Shown here: in pieces, positions 30,503 to 45,576 of the stretch
How positions within the stretch are numbered: position 1 is the first letter of the stretch
How the letters are laid out: each line of letters begins with the position of its first letter
Source of the DNA: Sphingomonas hankyongi
GTDB taxonomy: Bacteria > Pseudomonadota > Alphaproteobacteria > Sphingomonadales > Sphingomonadaceae
Assembly (NCBI RefSeq): GCF_023516575.1
Contig: NZ_JAMGBE010000001.1
Span: forward strand, 434,001 to 498,000
Direction: 5' to 3'
DNA: 64,000 nucleotides
Translations under genes and position numbers: made by a program
The notes under the pieces: generated by a model
The model's database searches: none
Told to the model about the DNA's origin: nothing
The model's input: the letters and a program-made list of their open reading frames with translations, nothing else

Positions 30503-31171
30503 TCACTCGCGTTCGTGGTCCCGGCTTAGTTCATCCACCTCGCCCATGATTGTCTGCAGGGCTGACTTGTCAGGGTCGGTCCGGTGTTGCCGACGCGATG
30601 GCAATTTGCCGCTCGAAAGCAATTGTTCGAGCGCAACCCTTCCGCGCGCCACGCGGCTTTTGATCGTGCCGACCGCGCAGCCGCAGATTTCCGCAGCTTC
30701 TTCGTAGGCGAACCCGCCCGCGCCCACCAGGATCAGCGCCTCGCGCTGGGGCTGCGGCAAATGCATCAGCGCCCGCTGCATGTCGCCAAGCTCGATGTGC
30801 CGGTCCTGGCTTGCGGGTGCTGCGAGGATCTTCGACGCGGTAATATCGTCCCATTCGCCCTTGAACCGGGCTCGCCGCATCTGGCTCAGGAACAAGTTGC
30901 GCAGAATAATGAAGGTCCAGGCACGCATGTTCGTGCCGGCCTGGAAGCGCTGGCGCGCAGCCCATGCCTTCAACAGCGTTTCCTGGACGAGGTCGTCCGC
31001 AAGATCGCGGCTTCCCGAAAGGGACCGGCCGAATGCACGCAAATGCGGAATAACCGCCGACAGCTGTTCCTTGAATTCCGGATCCGACAACGGGACGTGT
31101 TCGGCCGGGGCTTCGCTCAGTTCCTCAATACGATCTTCAGCCAAGGACTGATCCCCACCCGTTATGCACAC
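30503..31171 (-). CDS. ecfG: General stress response ECF sigma factor EcfG
   Basis: 222 residues with sigma-70 region 2 (LRAFGRSLSGSRDLADDLVQ, then AWTFIILRNLFL) and region 4 (LPQPQREALILVGAGGFAYE, then GCAVGTIKSRVARGR), as in EcfG/RpoE2-type sigma factors of alphaproteobacteria. It directs RNA polymerase to GGAAC-N16/17-CGTT promoters. The longest reading starts at GTG 31171; a TTG at 31144 with GGGGA upstream is an equal candidate. A perfect promoter of its own type lies upstream of the small membrane protein gene in front, so positive autoregulation is likely. It converges on a NepR-like gene. Confidence 0.95.
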   Translation of the reverse strand: MCITGGDQSLAEDRIEELSEAPAEHVPLSDPEFKEQLSAVIPHLRAFGRSLSGSRDLADDLVQETLLKAWAARQRFQAGTNMRAWTFIILRNLFLSQMRRARFKGEWDDITASKILAAPASQDRHIELGDMQRALMHLPQPQREALILVGAGGFAYEEAAEICGCAVGTIKSRVARGRVALEQLLSSGKLPSRRQHRTDPDKSALQTIMGEVDELSRDHERE

Positions 31172-31451: not shown

Positions 31452-32252
31452 TCAGGCGGCAGGAACGGTGGCTGCGTCGAAGAACAATGCTTGTGCGATC
31501 GCCGCTTTAACGGTCGAACGCTGGAATGGCTTGGTGATCAGGAAGGTAGGCTCCGGTCGAGTTCCGGTCAGCAAGCGCTCCGGGAACGCTGTGATGAAGA
31601 TCACCGGTACCGAGAACTCGGCTAGGATGTCCTTTACCGCGTCGATACCGCTTGAATCGTCGGCAAGCTGAATGTCGGCGAGCACCAATCCCGGCGGGTG
31701 CTGCCGCGCCTGGGCGACCGCTTCGTCGCGCGTGACGGCAACGCCAGTCACGTTGTGGCCGAGGTCACGAACGATCGTCTCGATATCCATCGCGATGATC
31801 GGCTCGTCCTCGATGATGAGCACATCCGCCAGCGTCTGGCGCTCGATTTCCTCGAGCGCCTCGGCGACGAGCGAATCCACGTCCGCGGGAGACGCGCCGA
31901 TCAGATAGGCGGTGTCCTCCGAGGAAAATCCCTCGAGCGACGTGAGCAACAGCGCCTGGCGAGACAAAGGGGTGATTCGCGATAGGCGCGCCTGCGCGAT
32001 GCCCTCTGCGCCAGTCAGGCTCTGGGATGGCTCCTCGCCTTCCTCGATATTGGCGGTCGACCAGATCGCATGGAACGTCTTGTAAAGTCCAAGCCGCGGA
32101 TCGACGTCGCGCGGGAATTCGTCGGGCTGCGCCACGATTGCCTCTAACGTCGCGCGAACGAACGCATCCCCGTGCGCCTGGCTGCCCGTCAGGGCACGCG
32201 CATAACGGCGGAGGAATGGCAAATGTGGAGCGAGTTCCTGGCCAAGCGACAT
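31452..32252 (-). CDS. phyR: General stress response anti-anti-sigma regulator PhyR
   Basis: 266 residues from ATG 32252 (GGAGAG nine bases upstream). The N-terminal half mimics an EcfG sigma factor (about 1-135) and binds NepR. The C-terminal half is a receiver domain with phosphoacceptor D193 (LADIQLADDSSG), the acidic pair in VLIIEDE, T221 and K241 (ITKPF). When phosphorylated it takes NepR away from EcfG. An in-frame start at 32315 would add 21 residues not seen in the family and was rejected. Divergent from nepR-phyP. Confidence 0.97.
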   Translation of the reverse strand: MSLGQELAPHLPFLRRYARALTGSQAHGDAFVRATLEAIVAQPDEFPRDVDPRLGLYKTFHAIWSTANIEEGEEPSQSLTGAEGIAQARLSRITPLSRQALLLTSLEGFSSEDTAYLIGASPADVDSLVAEALEEIERQTLADVLIIEDEPIIAMDIETIVRDLGHNVTGVAVTRDEAVAQARQHPPGLVLADIQLADDSSGIDAVKDILAEFSVPVIFITAFPERLLTGTRPEPTFLITKPFQRSTVKAAIAQALFFDAATVPAA

Positions 32253-32558
32253 AAGTGAAGGCTCTCCATCAAATCGATTTGCCGCGTCTTTGGCGGCGCC
32301 TCGGAATTGTTGCAACCCTGGAAGGACCGTTCGTCAGCCCGGCTTTCTTCCGCCCCCAGAGAATGATCAGCACTGGAACAAAGCACCGGCCATTTGGTTT
32401 CCCTCCCGGGCTAACCGCACGTGAAATCTACGACTGTGGACGAAGCAGTGGTTGGCCCAAGCTGTATCGGGGTTGGACAGATCCACAGTTAGACCGTTGC
32501 GCCGCAAGGCTGAATTTGTATGACGCGCGCTTGTACCCGCGCGAGGGGGGACGAGAGG
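32253..32558. other. phyR-nepR divergent control region
   Basis: 306 bases without a protein gene that I can support. It holds the promoters of phyR (minus) and nepR-phyP (plus). A near-consensus EcfG-type promoter for nepR is at 32375-32399, and the opposite strand of the same stretch has a weaker match reading toward phyR (GGAAA-N17-TGTT). Nothing else was recognised. Confidence 0.5.
32375..32399 (+). promoter_or_regulatory. Near-consensus EcfG-type promoter for nepR-phyP
   Basis: GGAAC at 32375-32379, 16 bases, then GGTT at 32396-32399 in place of CGTT: eight of nine consensus positions with normal spacing, reading toward nepR. It would leave a leader of about 150 bases, longer than usual, so the call is tentative. 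Confidence 0.5.
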
Positions 32559-32753
32559 TTGAGTGCCAAAAATAAGGGCGAGGCGGAAGGAGCAGGGAAC
32601 ATCAGGCGCTCCAGGTCATCCTCGGCTTCCGACAGAAAATCCCGCAAGCAGCGATCCGGCGACCTCGGACGCGCCTTGCGCACGATTTACGACGATACGC
32701 TTCGCGAGCCCGTCCCCGACGATTTCGCCGATCTCATCGGGAAGCTCAGCTAG
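32559..32753 (+). CDS. nepR: Anti-sigma factor NepR
   Basis: 64 residues from TTG 32559. A basic, low-complexity N-terminus is followed by the two-helix NepR core (GDLGRALRTIYDDTLREPVP then DDFADLIGKLS). NepR sequesters EcfG until PhyR, once phosphorylated, binds NepR. The start is chosen because GGGGGG lies eight bases before TTG 32559; the longest reading from ATG 32520 adds 13 arginine-rich residues that look like translated leader. Divergent from phyR and followed after 21 bases by the phyP-like gene on the same strand. Confidence 0.88.
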   Translation: MSAKNKGEAEGAGNIRRSRSSSASDRKSRKQRSGDLGRALRTIYDDTLREPVPDDFADLIGKLS

Positions 32754-32774: not shown

Positions 32775-34307
32775 ATGAGCGCGGCGGAACGATTCGCCCG
32801 TCTTCCGACGGCAGCCAAGCTCCTCCTCATACTCACCGCGGTGCTCCTGCCGATCGGTATCGGCCTGGCCTACGTCGGTCAGGAAGGCATTCGCGAAGCC
32901 AATTCGGCATTGGAAGGCCGCAGCCAAGACCAGGCGCAGGTGGCCGCTCGGTCAATCGAAAGCTTGATTGCCCGTAACGCCCTGGCGTTGCGCATTGCCG
33001 CCAACGGCGGCCTTGAAGGCGGCGCATCGAGGGCTTGCGACCGAGCGCGCAACGCGCTTGCGATCGCGCCGGCGGTGTCCCAAGCGTTCGAACTCGAATC
33101 TCCGGATGGGAATCCCATCTGCCAAACCGTCAGCCTCGGCGACACGAGCTCGCTCCCGGTGACGGCGCCCGGCGCAATTACGGTGCAAATCTCTCCTGCG
33201 GGGAATGCCATCGCGCTTCGCACCGGAGTCATCAATGGCATGGCTACAGCCGTGATCCCCCTGCAGGAGCTGCGCGCCGCCATCTCGGACGCGGGATTCG
33301 ACATCCCTCTCCTCGTCATTCGCGACCGCGACGACGAACTAACGCTCATCGACCCGGGCGAGGGCGTCGACGATCTCGCAGTCAGCGACTGGCCCATCGC
33401 CGGCACCGATCTGAAAGTTCGTGTGGGCATGGCCGAACAGCGCATCACTACCGCCGACCGTCTCTTATTACTCCTTCCGCTCCTGATGTGGGTCGCGGCC
33501 GCGCTGATCGCCTGGCTGCTCGTTTCGCGGTTGCTCATCCGCCCTCTCAAGCGGCTCCAGCGATCCGTTCAGGGATACGACCCGGCGCAAGGCCCGCTCC
33601 AGCTTCCGCGAAAGGTAGGCCCGTCGACCGAGATACAGGACCTGCGCGATGCCTTTGGGAGGGCGTTTTCACGGGCCGAGGAATCCGAACGTGAGGTCAC
33701 GACAGCTCTCGAAGGGCAGAAGCGGCTGGTGCGGGAAGTCCACCATCGCGTGAAGAACAACCTGCAGGTGGTGGCCTCCCTGCTAAACATTCACGGACGC
33801 AGCGCGGCGACCACGGAAGCGCGCGCCGCTTATGCCTCGATCAGCCGGCGAGTGGGCGCTCTTTCCATCGTACACCGGAACCATTTCGCCGAGATGGAGG
33901 AAAGCCGGGGAATCGCGCTTCGGCCGCTGCTTACCGAGCTTGCCGCGGAGCTCCGCGCAAGCGCACCGGAGGCCGCGCGTGGACTGATGATCGAGCTGGA
34001 CCTCGACAGTGTTTACACGACCCAGGATGCCGCGGTTGCCGTGGCGTTCCTCGTCACCGAAATCGTTGAGTTCGCGATGCTGAACTGTCCGCAGGACCCA
34101 ATCGAGGTATCGCTTCGGCGGAGCAGTGAGCTGACGGGCCGGCTTACTCTCAACAGCCGGGTGCTCGTTCCCGAAGGCGACTCGAACGAAACGCCAGAGA
34201 AAGTTCAATTCGAGCGGATCGTCGGGGGTCTGGCGAAGCAGCTCCGATCCAACCTCGACCGCAAGCTGGGCCGCTATAGCGTTGATCTGCCGGTGTTTCC
34301 CGCCTGA
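32775..34307 (+). CDS. phyP: PhyP-like sensor protein with degenerate kinase domain (PhyR phosphatase candidate)
   Basis: 510 residues. Two membrane helices (about 13-34 and 230-252) flank a periplasmic sensor of about 190 residues; a HAMP-like linker follows. The dimerisation/phosphotransfer helix reads REVHHRVKNNLQVVASLLN, with H324 as the site in the HRxxN-type family. The ATP-binding part is degenerate: where active kinases have an N-box like NELVTNA this has TEIVEFA (about 428-434), and no DxGxG box is seen. In Sphingomonas the protein beside nepR with these traits is PhyP, which acts as a PhyR phosphatase. Gene order and degeneracy both fit; the symbol is by inference. Confidence 0.82.
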   Translation: MSAAERFARLPTAAKLLLILTAVLLPIGIGLAYVGQEGIREANSALEGRSQDQAQVAARSIESLIARNALALRIAANGGLEGGASRACDRARNALAIAPAVSQAFELESPDGNPICQTVSLGDTSSLPVTAPGAITVQISPAGNAIALRTGVINGMATAVIPLQELRAAISDAGFDIPLLVIRDRDDELTLIDPGEGVDDLAVSDWPIAGTDLKVRVGMAEQRITTADRLLLLLPLLMWVAAALIAWLLVSRLLIRPLKRLQRSVQGYDPAQGPLQLPRKVGPSTEIQDLRDAFGRAFSRAEESEREVTTALEGQKRLVREVHHRVKNNLQVVASLLNIHGRSAATTEARAAYASISRRVGALSIVHRNHFAEMEESRGIALRPLLTELAAELRASAPEAARGLMIELDLDSVYTTQDAAVAVAFLVTEIVEFAMLNCPQDPIEVSLRRSSELTGRLTLNSRVLVPEGDSNETPEKVQFERIVGGLAKQLRSNLDRKLGRYSVDLPVFPA

Positions 34308-34358
34308 TGCGATCGCCGAGATCGTTACGGCTGTAGCCAAAAAAAGATTCTGATCGCC

Positions 34359-34384
34359 GGAACTGTTCTCGAAGAAGGGGCGTT
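34359..34384 (+). promoter_or_regulatory. Perfect EcfG-type promoter (GGAAC-N17-CGTT) with no protein gene downstream
   Basis: GGAAC at 34359-34363, 17 bases, CGTT at 34381-34384: all nine consensus positions at an accepted spacing. It lies 51 bases after the phyP stop and points away from it, toward the 3' end of tatC on the other strand. The only thing it could drive is a short RNA. Confidence 0.75.
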
Positions 34385-34390
34385 ATGCAG

Positions 34391-34495
34391 TTCGGATAGT
34401 GACCTTTTGCCCCCCCGCTCTCGCTATCCGCTTAAATGGGCCCGGAACCGCCAACCCTCCCCCCCCCCGGTGGCGCTTCCGGGCCCTCTTCTGTC
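34391..34495 (+). ncRNA. Candidate EcfG-dependent small RNA with two C-rich-loop hairpins (GsrN-like)
   Basis: Starting about seven bases after a perfect EcfG-type promoter. Hairpin 1: ten-base stem 34393-34402 with 34421-34430 (one U-G pair) and an 18-base loop holding seven Cs (34410-34416). Hairpin 2: 34438-34447 pairs with 34477-34486 (ten GC-rich pairs), extended inside, with a loop of ten Cs (34459-34468), then a partly T-rich tail (TCTTCTGTC). Caulobacter GsrN is an EcfG(SigT)-driven RNA with a C-rich loop that pairs with mRNA leaders, so the architecture matches. The second half lies antisense to the end of tatC. Both ends are predicted, not measured. Confidence 0.45.
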
Positions 34496-35274
34496 TGGGG
34501 CTCAGCAACTTCGGCACCTTCTGACCGCGCGGCTCGCCTCGCGGCGCGCCAGTGCGTGATACGGATCGCCAGGATCGCCAATTCGTAAAGGCCGTACAGC
34601 GGCACTAGCAGGATCAGCATTGACACGACGTCGGGTGGCGTCAGCACCGCAGAAACCGCGGCGGAGGCCACGATGGCGTAGCGCCGTGACTTCGCGAGTT
34701 GCTCGCGCGTGACGATTCCTGCCCGCTCGAGGATCATCAGCAGGATCGGCAGCAGGAACGCGGCGCCGAAACCAAACAAAAATCGGGTGACGAAATTAAG
34801 GTAGTTTCCGACGCCGGGCAGAGCTTCCTGGCTGACGCCGCCCACATCGCCTTGGAACCCAAGCAGGAAATGCAGGGCCCAGGGCATTGCGATGAAATAT
34901 GCAAAAGTGGCCCCGCCGGCGAAAAAGAAGGGTGTCGCCAGCAGGAAGGGCAAGAAAGCCTTTTTCTCCTTCGCGTAGAGGCCGGGCGCGGTAAAACGCC
35001 ACAGTTGCGTCGCAAGCATCGGGAAGCTGAGCATGAAGGCCGCGAACAGCGCGACCTTCACCTGCACGAAGAAGGCTTCAAAAATGTCCGTGTAGATGAG
35101 CTTGCCTTGCCCTGCTTTCAGCAGCGGCTGCACCAGGATCGCGAAGATATCCTTCGCGAATGCAAGGCAGATGAAGAAGGTCACGACCAAGGTCGCAAGG
35201 CACCATAGGAGGCGGCGCCGGAGCTCGATCAAATGCTCGAGCAGCGGCTGCTTTGTCTCGTCGATGTCCTTCAT
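34432..35274 (-). CDS. tatC: Twin-arginine translocase subunit TatC
   Basis: 280 residues, six membrane helices. TatC is the receptor for twin-arginine signal peptides. It shows PLLEHLIELRRRLLWCL at the start (the conserved cytoplasmic N-terminus) and FTAPGLYAKEKKAFLPFLL in the first loop region. ATG 35274 overlaps the tatB stop. The C-terminal tail (about residues 245-280) is Glu/Pro/Gly-rich; its last codons contain a run of ten G on the coding strand (34468-34459) that could slip. Last gene of a long minus-strand run. Confidence 0.97.
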   Translation of the reverse strand: MKDIDETKQPLLEHLIELRRRLLWCLATLVVTFFICLAFAKDIFAILVQPLLKAGQGKLIYTDIFEAFFVQVKVALFAAFMLSFPMLATQLWRFTAPGLYAKEKKAFLPFLLATPFFFAGGATFAYFIAMPWALHFLLGFQGDVGGVSQEALPGVGNYLNFVTRFLFGFGAAFLLPILLMILERAGIVTREQLAKSRRYAIVASAAVSAVLTPPDVVSMLILLVPLYGLYELAILAIRITHWRAARRAARSEGAEVAEPQTEEGPEAPPGGGRVGGSGPI

Positions 35275-44169: not shown

Positions 44170-45531
44170 CTACTGGTTATTCTGCCGGTTGAGGAAACGC
44201 GGAATATCGATCGGCTCGCGGAAGCCGGGTTCATCGCCCTCGATCTGCGCCTTGGGAGCGCCGCGAGCGATGTTCGACATACGCTCGAACAGGGTTCCCC
44301 CGGCAGTTCTAGTACCCGCATCCACGGCGTCGTCATCGTCCGGCGGAGCAATCGGCGGCGCACCCACGGGTGCCGTCAGGATGTCGTCGGCATCCAGGAG
44401 AAGCTCGTTCTCGTCATCTGTCTCATCGCCGAGTTCGAGCGCCGCCTCTTCGTCGGATTCAGGCGCTTCCGCTGTTTCCGGCTTTGCGAAGTTGGCAGCG
44501 GGCACCGGGGCAGCGGCACGCTGCGGGAAGGTGAAGACCTTGCCCGGAGCCGGCTGGGCCGAGGCCTCCGCCTCGATGCCGGTCGCAACCACCGAAACCC
44601 GAATCTTGCCGCCAAGGTCGTTGTTGAAGGCCGAGCCCCAGATGATGTTCGCGTCGGGGTCAACCAGCTCCTTGATATGGCTGGCGGCCTCGTCGACCTC
44701 CATTAGGCGCATATCCTCGCCGCCGGTGATCGAGATGATGACGCCCTTGGCGCCCTTCATGCTGACCCCGTCGAGCAGCGGATTGGAGATCGCCTTTTCT
44801 GCCGCCTCGATCGCCCGGTTGTCTCCGTCTGCTTCGCCCGTTCCCATCATGGCCTTGCCCATCTCGCTCATCACCGAACGAACGTCGGCGAAATCGAGGT
44901 TGATGAGTCCCGGCATGACCATGAGGTCGGTGATGCCGCGAACGCCCTGTTGCAGCACCTCGTCCGCCATCTCGAAGGCTTCCTTGAAGGTCGTCTCCGA
45001 ATTGGCGAGCCGGAACAGGTTCTGGTTCGGAATGACGATCAGCGTGTCGACGTGCTGCTGAAGCTCCTGGATTCCGGAGTCGGCTGAGCGAGAGCGACGG
45101 GCCCCCTCAAACGCGAACGGCTTGGTCACGACACCGACGGTCAGGATGCCCTTGTCCCTGGCGGCCTTGGCGATGACCGGGGCCGCGCCGGTTCCGGTGC
45201 CGCCGCCCATGCCGGCCGCGATGAAGCACATGTGTGCGCCCTCGAGCGACTGGATGATCTCGTCGAGGGTCTCTTCCGCCGCGGCACGTCCGATCTCGGG
45301 CCTGGAGCCTGCGCCCAGTCCCTGCGTGATCTTGAGGCCGAGCTGGATCCGGCGGTCCGCGTCGGAAGCGTTGAGCGCCTGGGCGTCAGTGTTCGCAACG
45401 ACGAAATCGACACCTTGCACGTCGGCACGCATCATGTTCGCGATCGCGTTCCCGCCCGCACCGCCGACGCCGATCACGCTGATCCGCGGACGAAGTTCGT
45501 CGACTTCCGGCCGGATGAAATCGATGCTCAT
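44170..45531 (-). CDS. ftsZ: Cell division protein FtsZ
   Basis: 453 residues from ATG 45531 (GGGGGGA eight bases upstream). FtsZ is the tubulin-like GTPase of the division ring. The GTP site shows [13 protein letters not shown], and the tubulin signature is [19 protein letters not shown] long variable linker (about 320-440) precedes the conserved C-terminal peptide (about 440-453; [12 protein letters not shown]), which binds FtsA and others. FtsA is not adjacent: 3 kb with three other genes lies between. Three GANTC sites lie 46-68 bases upstream, and a terminator follows. Confidence 0.99.
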
Positions 45532-45576
45532 GACCAAAATCCCCCCAAAAGCAGCAACGCGTTGAGCCTACAGGAT

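Follow-up and report, generated by a model that had tools for sequence, protein, structure and literature searches.

A conserved candidate RNA gene with C-rich loops at the general stress response locus of Sphingomonas hankyongi and other Sphingomonadaceae

Gene organization and promoter motif at the stress locus

The stretch of the Sphingomonas hankyongi genome analyzed here (64,000 nt of contig NZ_JAMGBE010000001.1, hereafter the window) carries on its minus strand a sigma factor gene (30503..31171; Pfam Sigma70_r2 and Sigma70_r4_2), which we presume to be ecfG because phyR and nepR lie next to it, together with phyR (31452..32255 for the portion scanned; Pfam PhyR_sigma2, PhyR_sigma-like, and Response_reg). 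On the plus strand lie the anti-sigma factor gene nepR (32559..32753; Pfam NepR), with a likely TTG start, and phyP (32775..34307), which is HisKA_2/HWE kinase-like by Pfam and owes its name to the initial annotation of this DNA and to its position. A motif match upstream of nepR, GGAAC-N16-GGTT (32375..32399, plus strand), resembles an EcfG site, and nepR-phyP may itself be EcfG dependent given this match. Beyond phyP, tatC (34432..35274, minus strand; Pfam TatC) is encoded convergently. As Pfam domains identify a sigma factor, PhyR, NepR, a HisKA_2/HWE kinase, and TatC around the RNA described below, this is the general stress locus.

The EcfG-type promoter that had been noticed behind phyP is borne out by the sequence: GGAAC-N17-CGTT occupies 34359..34384 of the plus strand (GGAAC at 34359-34363, a 17-nt spacer, and CGTT at 34381-34384), 51 nt past the phyP stop, which ends at 34307. 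The match alone proves nothing, because the motif is no more frequent than expected by chance (GGAAC-N16-18-CGTT in the window, 2 observed versus 1.35 expected from shuffles; GGAAC-N16-17-CGTT genome-wide, 30 versus 51 for a reversed control pattern), and it is conservation that decides. GGAAC-N16/17-CGTT is kept in all 69 full copies found in the genus, always 9 nt before the GGATAG of the first hairpin, with N16 in 26 copies and N17 in 43 and with drifting spacer letters. In a family-wide alignment of 100 rows, GGAAC-N16/17-NGTT, counted independently of the covariance model, lies upstream in 99 (L262 lacks the site), with a −10 box reading CGTT in 79, GGTT in 12, TGTT in 7, and AGTT in 1; the promoter-to-RNA distance is identical in 93 rows. 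In a report on another sphingomonad, Sphingopyxis granuli, the promoter of the general stress response (GSR) is given as GGAAC-N16-CGTT with a flexible −10 box (PMC7083833). The motif and its conservation agree with the earlier proposal of an EcfG-type promoter and make it very likely that the promoter of the RNA gene is an EcfG promoter.

Structure, conservation, and distribution of the RNA

Behind this motif we place a putative RNA of about 105 nt on the plus strand (34391..34497), the ends of which are predicted from promoter spacing and from a terminator-like hairpin. Hairpin 1 (34393..34430), supported by the fold and by pair changes, starts 8 nt after CGTT and consists of 10 pairs (34393-34402 with 34421-34430) around a nearly invariant 18-nt loop, CCUUUUGCCCCCCCGCUC (34403..34420), whose C7 run at 34410-34416 is mostly unpaired, confirming the ten-pair stem and the 18-base loop with seven Cs described at the outset. 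Hairpin 2 (34438..34486), supported by covariation, is terminator-like and has 10 outer pairs, about 4-5 inner pairs, and a C-rich loop (ACCCUC10) with a C10 run at 34459..34468; the ten outer pairs and the C10 loop had been described correctly, but the pairs are not all GC (8 GC and 2 AU). The fold of the RNA region is more stable than 200 of 200 dinucleotide shuffles (z −3.22). The predicted length and the 3′ hairpin would fit a GsrN-type RNA of ~100 nt with an intrinsic terminator; the T tract is moderate. C-run lengths differ between copies by numbers that are not divisible by three, which speaks against a small open reading frame across the loops.

Two features favor the plus strand. Read on this strand, the alignments have more G-U than A-C cells (84 versus 8 in the genus, 106 versus 62 family-wide), and the two numbers would be exchanged if the opposite strand were read. 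The 3′ side is also T rich: the T fraction 3-12 nt beyond hairpin 2 is 0.525 on the plus strand versus 0.348 on the minus strand, and at least five Ts among these 10 nt are found in 72 of 100 rows on the plus strand versus 19 of 100 on the minus strand. From these patterns, it is very likely that the RNA gene lies on the plus strand.

Within the genus, a blastn search of 71 genomes with positions 34345-34510 as the query returned matches in 70 at an E value of ≤1 and in 69 at an E value of <1e-13, the own genome included. The exceptions are two incomplete assemblies (79% and 77%), one (G058) without a match and one (G055) with a match only at an E value of 0.02; a third genome, G060, retains a 52-nt piece of the RNA region at a contig start. 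These three gave no full copy, and the other 68 of the 71 genomes gave 69, since G052 carries two (a partial second match in G056, L180, was dropped before counting). Outside the own genome, the main RNA matches are 83-98% identical, compared with 47-69% for full-length PhyP matches. In an alignment of the 64 distinct rows among the 69 copies, identical rows having been dropped, 96.2% of cells are paired in a 25-pair structure and both-side changes occur at 9 of the 25 pairs; the observed values were reached by 0 of 500 shuffles on four of five measures and by 3 of 500 on the fifth. Comparison of the 34350-34500 region among related sphingomonads, proposed earlier as a check, thus shows the promoter motif, the stems, and the free C-rich loops to be conserved.

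Beyond the genus, a covariance model (R1) was applied with strict filters that lose weak matches. It detected the RNA in 98 of 298 family genomes, which represent 35 of 96 genera with the own genus counted. The RNA does not occur throughout Sphingomonadaceae; two of the 98 genomes (G247 and G102) have only weak matches without the promoter. The 100-row alignment combines 17 genus copies with 83 of the 97 other loci (L187-L283) and leaves out the 14 lower-scoring ones (L270-L283). Of these 14, L270-L276 and L282 carry GGAAC-N16-NGTT at a distance of 4-7 nt and L283 carries GGAAC-N16-CATT, whereas a site of this kind is missing from the expected position in L277-L281. Both-side changes are found at 23 of 24 pairs (223 cells versus 49.7 in shuffles, with 0 of 500 shuffles reaching the observed value on any of five measures) in this alignment, which was fitted to the structure and so leans to it. 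Hairpin 1 loses its outermost pair in 53 of 96 family-wide rows. With a second model (R2), additional genera yielded copies that are more divergent, have the promoter, and mostly lie beside tatC, and a promoter scan beside tatC in 30 family genomes, most of them without a good model match, added two divergent copies (L421 and L442), with none in 27 genomes and one stretch (L419) ending at a contig end. Family matches with low scores and with the promoter not at the right place (L277-L281, L358, L359, and L366-L371) were not counted. Also rejected were candidates outside the family, namely, weak matches of 23-34 bits in 5 of 385 class genomes and of 25-28 bits in four order-level genomes, none with the promoter.

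Stretches of ~1.5 kb to either side of the RNA were examined at the 83 loci outside the genus. PhyP upstream is combined with TatC downstream in 56 of them, 14 have TatC only, 11 have PhyP only, and 2 have neither, where PhyP was called by tblastn at 1e-5, a threshold that a related kinase could pass. PhyP thus lies upstream in 67 of the 83, and 14 of the 16 loci without it keep TatC downstream; these 16 loci indicate that the RNA also exists away from phyP. Approached from the protein, 80 of 558 PhyP relatives were kept; among the first 39 from named records (L002-L040), the RNA lies just after phyP in 26, no GGAAC-N15-18-NGTT was found within 700 nt after phyP in the other 13 (six of them named Sphingobium), and the rest of the 80 are Rhodobacteraceae. 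On the far side, the second half of the RNA had been described as antisense to the end of tatC. The overlap is real here (stop at 34432-34434), but it is not conserved: TatC stops within the RNA or ahead of the RNA end in 7 of the 76 loci with TatC found (of 100 rows), all from the own genus, and at least 100 nt downstream of the RNA start in the remaining 69. As the overlap is confined to the own genus, we take it to be incidental and reject antisense action on tatC as a general function.

The longest C run of loop 1 is at least 6 in 99 of 100 rows, with a mean probability of 0.89 of being unpaired, and the loop reads GC6-7GCU in 89. That of loop 2 is at least 5 in all 100, with a corresponding mean of 0.98, and CCUCC is present there in 55. 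This is striking because long G or C runs are otherwise avoided: base composition would predict 28.8 runs of at least 7 in the window, and only two occur, both in the RNA. A second, distant copy (L275 of G292, about 1517-1642) keeps a 22-nt loop 1 region, GACCTTTTGCCCCCCCGCTCTC, letter for letter and has another stem, another terminator, and its own GGAAC-N16-CGTT, which points to loop 1 as the working part. A weak match of 25 bits in G075 (L282, minus strand, about 1479-1620) combines a C8 loop and a CCUCCCCCC loop with GGAAC-N16-TGTT; it is possibly a further paralog, G075 also having L276. Other hairpins with C-rich loops, like CCCCUCCCCCUCCC, occur shortly before a start codon in several genera (L278, L366, L367, and L369) without an EcfG site, the downstream frame beginning with ATGCTC in L278, L367, and L369. 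Similar hairpins with CCCUCCCCUCCCC-like C-rich loops and no EcfG site in another family of the order (L362, L363, L364, and L365) possibly represent a separate RNA family.

A search of the window against Rfam release 15 at the gathering score gave no match, and we found no published report of this RNA in a literature search that covered few subscription journals. In the main text of the Sphingopyxis GSR paper, the words “sRNA” and “small RNA” are absent, and its reference list cites the small non-coding RNA SuhB (PMC7083833); GsrN is not mentioned in the available part of a further paper (PMC8103513). Judged by sequence comparison, the RNA is an unrecognized RNA family of Sphingomonadaceae, and it is close to certain that its gene is real and under selection.

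Candidate targets of the C-rich loops

The best candidate target found for loop 1 lies in the stress locus itself. The nepR ribosome-binding region (32541..32558, plus strand) contains a G6 run, and its predicted duplex with loop 1, CCUUUUG-CCCCCC-CGC with GCG-a-GGGGGG-a-CGAGAGG, has an energy of −29.3 kcal/mol (loop 2 with the nepR leader, −23.9). As good an energy was obtained for 1 of 5,975 random 40-mers and for 0 of 55 called gene leaders. This 16-pair duplex would require the opening of hairpin 1. Across 30 genus loci, which are related and so not independent, the median z for loop 1 against the nepR leader is −2.25, with a P value of ≤0.05 in 20 and ≤0.01 in 8 (L139 being counted as a miss). 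The duplex is no better than background in 23 named loci, 22 outside the genus plus L002 (median z, 0.0; P ≤ 0.05 in 2 of 23), partly because the nepR start is badly projected there.

Of 29 genus loci (the same 30 minus L139, whose leader is cut off), 28 have a run of 5 to 8 Gs immediately ahead of TTGAGTG, the nepR start, and L125 has 4. Outside the genus, a run of at least 5 Gs lies within 190 nt before the NepR core in 17 of the 22 RNA-bearing loci with nepR found, against a background of ~10% of equal windows in the same loci (binomial, 8e-14). Of 8 loci in which phyP has no such RNA next to it, 4 have the run too, a difference that is not significant (17/22 versus 4/8, Fisher P = 0.20), and in some of these genomes the RNA could lie elsewhere. 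The run may be no more than a strong ribosome-binding site. We put forward the nepR ribosome-binding region as the best candidate target found, as a testable proposal and not as a result.

Pairing with a katG-type leader, mentioned earlier for Caulobacter GsrN, is not supported here. The gene is present in the genome, but its leader has no G run of at least 5, and we rejected it as a target on this ground; duplex energies of the whole RNA with katG are uninformative because they are spread over the full length. A weaker, second candidate suggested by sequence is ftsZ (assigned by NCBIfam equivalog), whose leader has a G6 run at the ribosome-binding region (45531-45546, minus strand). At least 5 Gs are found at this place in 12 of 18 genus genomes. 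A kept G run of this kind is absent from the remaining 17 called frames of the 20 kb compared, several of which are probably not genes or have misplaced starts. Before the first start, a run of at least 5 Gs occurs in 1 of the 55 called genes of the window, namely, ftsZ; when any early start is accepted, the number rises to 5 of 55. The ftsZ duplex energy is ordinary (441 of 5,975 random 40-mers are as good).

Other complementary sites were also considered. The perfect 10-mer complement of loop 1, GCGGGGGGGC, has one genomic site besides the antisense of the RNA itself, and we rejected it as a target as it lies inside a coding sequence and not in a leader; from a motif, we take this coding sequence to resemble nitronate monooxygenase. 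GGGGRGG ribosome-binding sites number 43 in this genome versus 6 for a control pattern; we rejected them as evidence of specificity and regard them only as a pool of possible partners. A GGGGAGG site with a nearly identical 13-nt stretch to the ATG occurs in L374, in L375, and at two further places, in four of the four genomes searched, and the protein that follows it, translated in two of the genomes, presumably resembles the pilus assembly protein CpaB.

Proposed role and comparison with known RNAs

The initial annotation had read this region as a GsrN-like, stress-induced C-loop RNA, a reading that is partly supported: the RNA gene, the EcfG-type motif, the location, and the conserved stems with free C-rich loops stand. 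Our best overall explanation, which we hold to be probable, is a two-hairpin C-loop RNA that likely acts in trans on G-rich ribosome-binding regions, with nepR as the best candidate. EcfG would drive transcription of the RNA under stress, the two hairpins would keep C runs of mostly 6 to 10 single stranded, and the C-rich loops would pair in trans with G-rich ribosome-binding regions of mRNAs; by analogy with GsrN, such action of the loops is likely. If loop 1 covered the nepR start region, NepR synthesis would be lowered and the stress response would become stronger or longer. A more specific version is tentative and, in our judgment, has perhaps a one-in-three standing at best: the EcfG-made RNA could cover the nepR ribosome-binding region both in cis and in trans, forming a positive loop at the RNA level and perhaps also, through the same code, braking ftsZ and with it division under stress. 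Action in cis, from 3′ untranslated region (UTR) to 5′ leader, in addition to trans action is conceivable because the RNA lies at the end of the nepR-phyP operon.

The same position allows the element to be read as a structured 3′ UTR or terminator of the nepR-phyP mRNA that pairs in cis with the complementary nepR leader or only protects the message, its EcfG site being an internal promoter. The start 51 nt after phyP and the terminator-like hairpin 2 fit this reading, which we nevertheless find unlikely, as the element has its own promoter motif in 99 of 100 rows and as 16 of 83 loci outside the genus have no PhyP upstream within ~1.5 kb, 14 of them keeping TatC. As nothing but a terminator, conserved and serving the convergent genes phyP and tatC in both directions with no regulatory RNA, it would account for a strong GC hairpin between convergent genes and leave unexplained the promoter motif, the second hairpin, and the near-invariant C loops; the wobble-pair excess and the T-rich side, both fitting the plus strand, also speak against it, and this reading, already disfavored, is scarcely credible.

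The RNA could be, by descent, the Sphingomonadaceae GsrN, an activator of catalase and other G-rich leaders as in Caulobacter, with which it shares the sigma type, the GSR-locus position, a predicted length of ~100 nt, a 5′ C-run loop, and a terminator-like 3′ hairpin (PMC5869019). We doubt this, as a search with the second model of 385 genomes drawn from the class, a few of them from the own family, brought up nothing convincing beyond the family and as the katG leader here has no G run. The loops might instead bind a protein rather than mRNAs, the RNA serving as a protein sponge, since the conservation of loop 1 (GC6-7GCU) exceeds what a single short pairing would seem to need and perfect 10-mer complements of the loop are rare. 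These genomes have few G runs of such length in any case, however, and the nepR and ftsZ leaders bear conserved shorter ones, so that we give the sponge very little credence and retain the trans-acting C-loop RNA as the preferred reading.

Erythrobacter litoralis belongs to the sphingomonad order. The legend of figure 9 in the GsrN study gives no apparent gsrN-like gene for this species, and GsrN-like RNAs are proposed there for Rhizobiaceae and others (PMC5869019). The RNA gene described here, strongly conserved and simple to delete, fills a gap of that study, which saw no candidate in its one named sphingomonad (PMC5869019), and its covariance model offers a means to find family members. Should nepR prove to be the target, an RNA feedback arm would be added to the partner switch of the general stress response in Alphaproteobacteria, and if ftsZ is a target, one short code would link stress and division.

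In icaR of Staphylococcus aureus, the 3′ UTR carries a UCCCC-type motif that pairs with the operon's own ribosome-binding site. The C-rich element considered here differs from that 5′-3′ UTR pairing in having its own stress promoter motif and, as its candidate partner, an anti-sigma factor gene. The CcsR RNAs of Rhodobacter have several hairpins whose stems vary and whose C-rich loops are anti-Shine-Dalgarno-like. The same traits are seen in the CCUCCUCCC-loop RNAs of Rhizobiales, SmelA075 and SmelA099, which have three or four hairpins each with CCUCCUCCC (PMC3927594), whereas the RNA of Sphingomonadaceae has two hairpins with C-run loops; in addition, CCUCC is present in its loop 2 in no more than 55 of 100 rows, and it has an EcfG-type promoter.

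The closest parallel is GsrN of Caulobacter crescentus, whose 5′ loop has six tandem Cs, and a proposed function of these Cs is to find targets that are G rich (PMC5869019). Both have a general-stress sigma promoter, a 5′ C loop, and G-rich proposed targets, and the predicted length of ~100 nt and the terminator-like 3′ hairpin would fit GsrN as well. GsrN is processed to a stable 5′ isoform, and its full-length form is stabilized by Hfq. The position in the GSR locus corresponds to that of GsrN in most Caulobacteraceae, not in C. crescentus itself (PMC5869019). The present gene lies in the locus of nepR, phyR, and the sigma factor gene, and its exposed 5′ loop has at least six Cs in 99 of 100 rows. 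It departs from GsrN in the second C-rich loop within the terminator hairpin, in its neighbors phyP and tatC, in the katG leader lacking a G run, in its candidate target nepR, and in showing no homology by model. The earlier designation as GsrN-like therefore holds for the kind of RNA and not for homology; with no homology found by model and no G run in the katG leader, the RNA is not to be filed as GsrN, and yet, as far as can be seen by analogy, it would work like GsrN.
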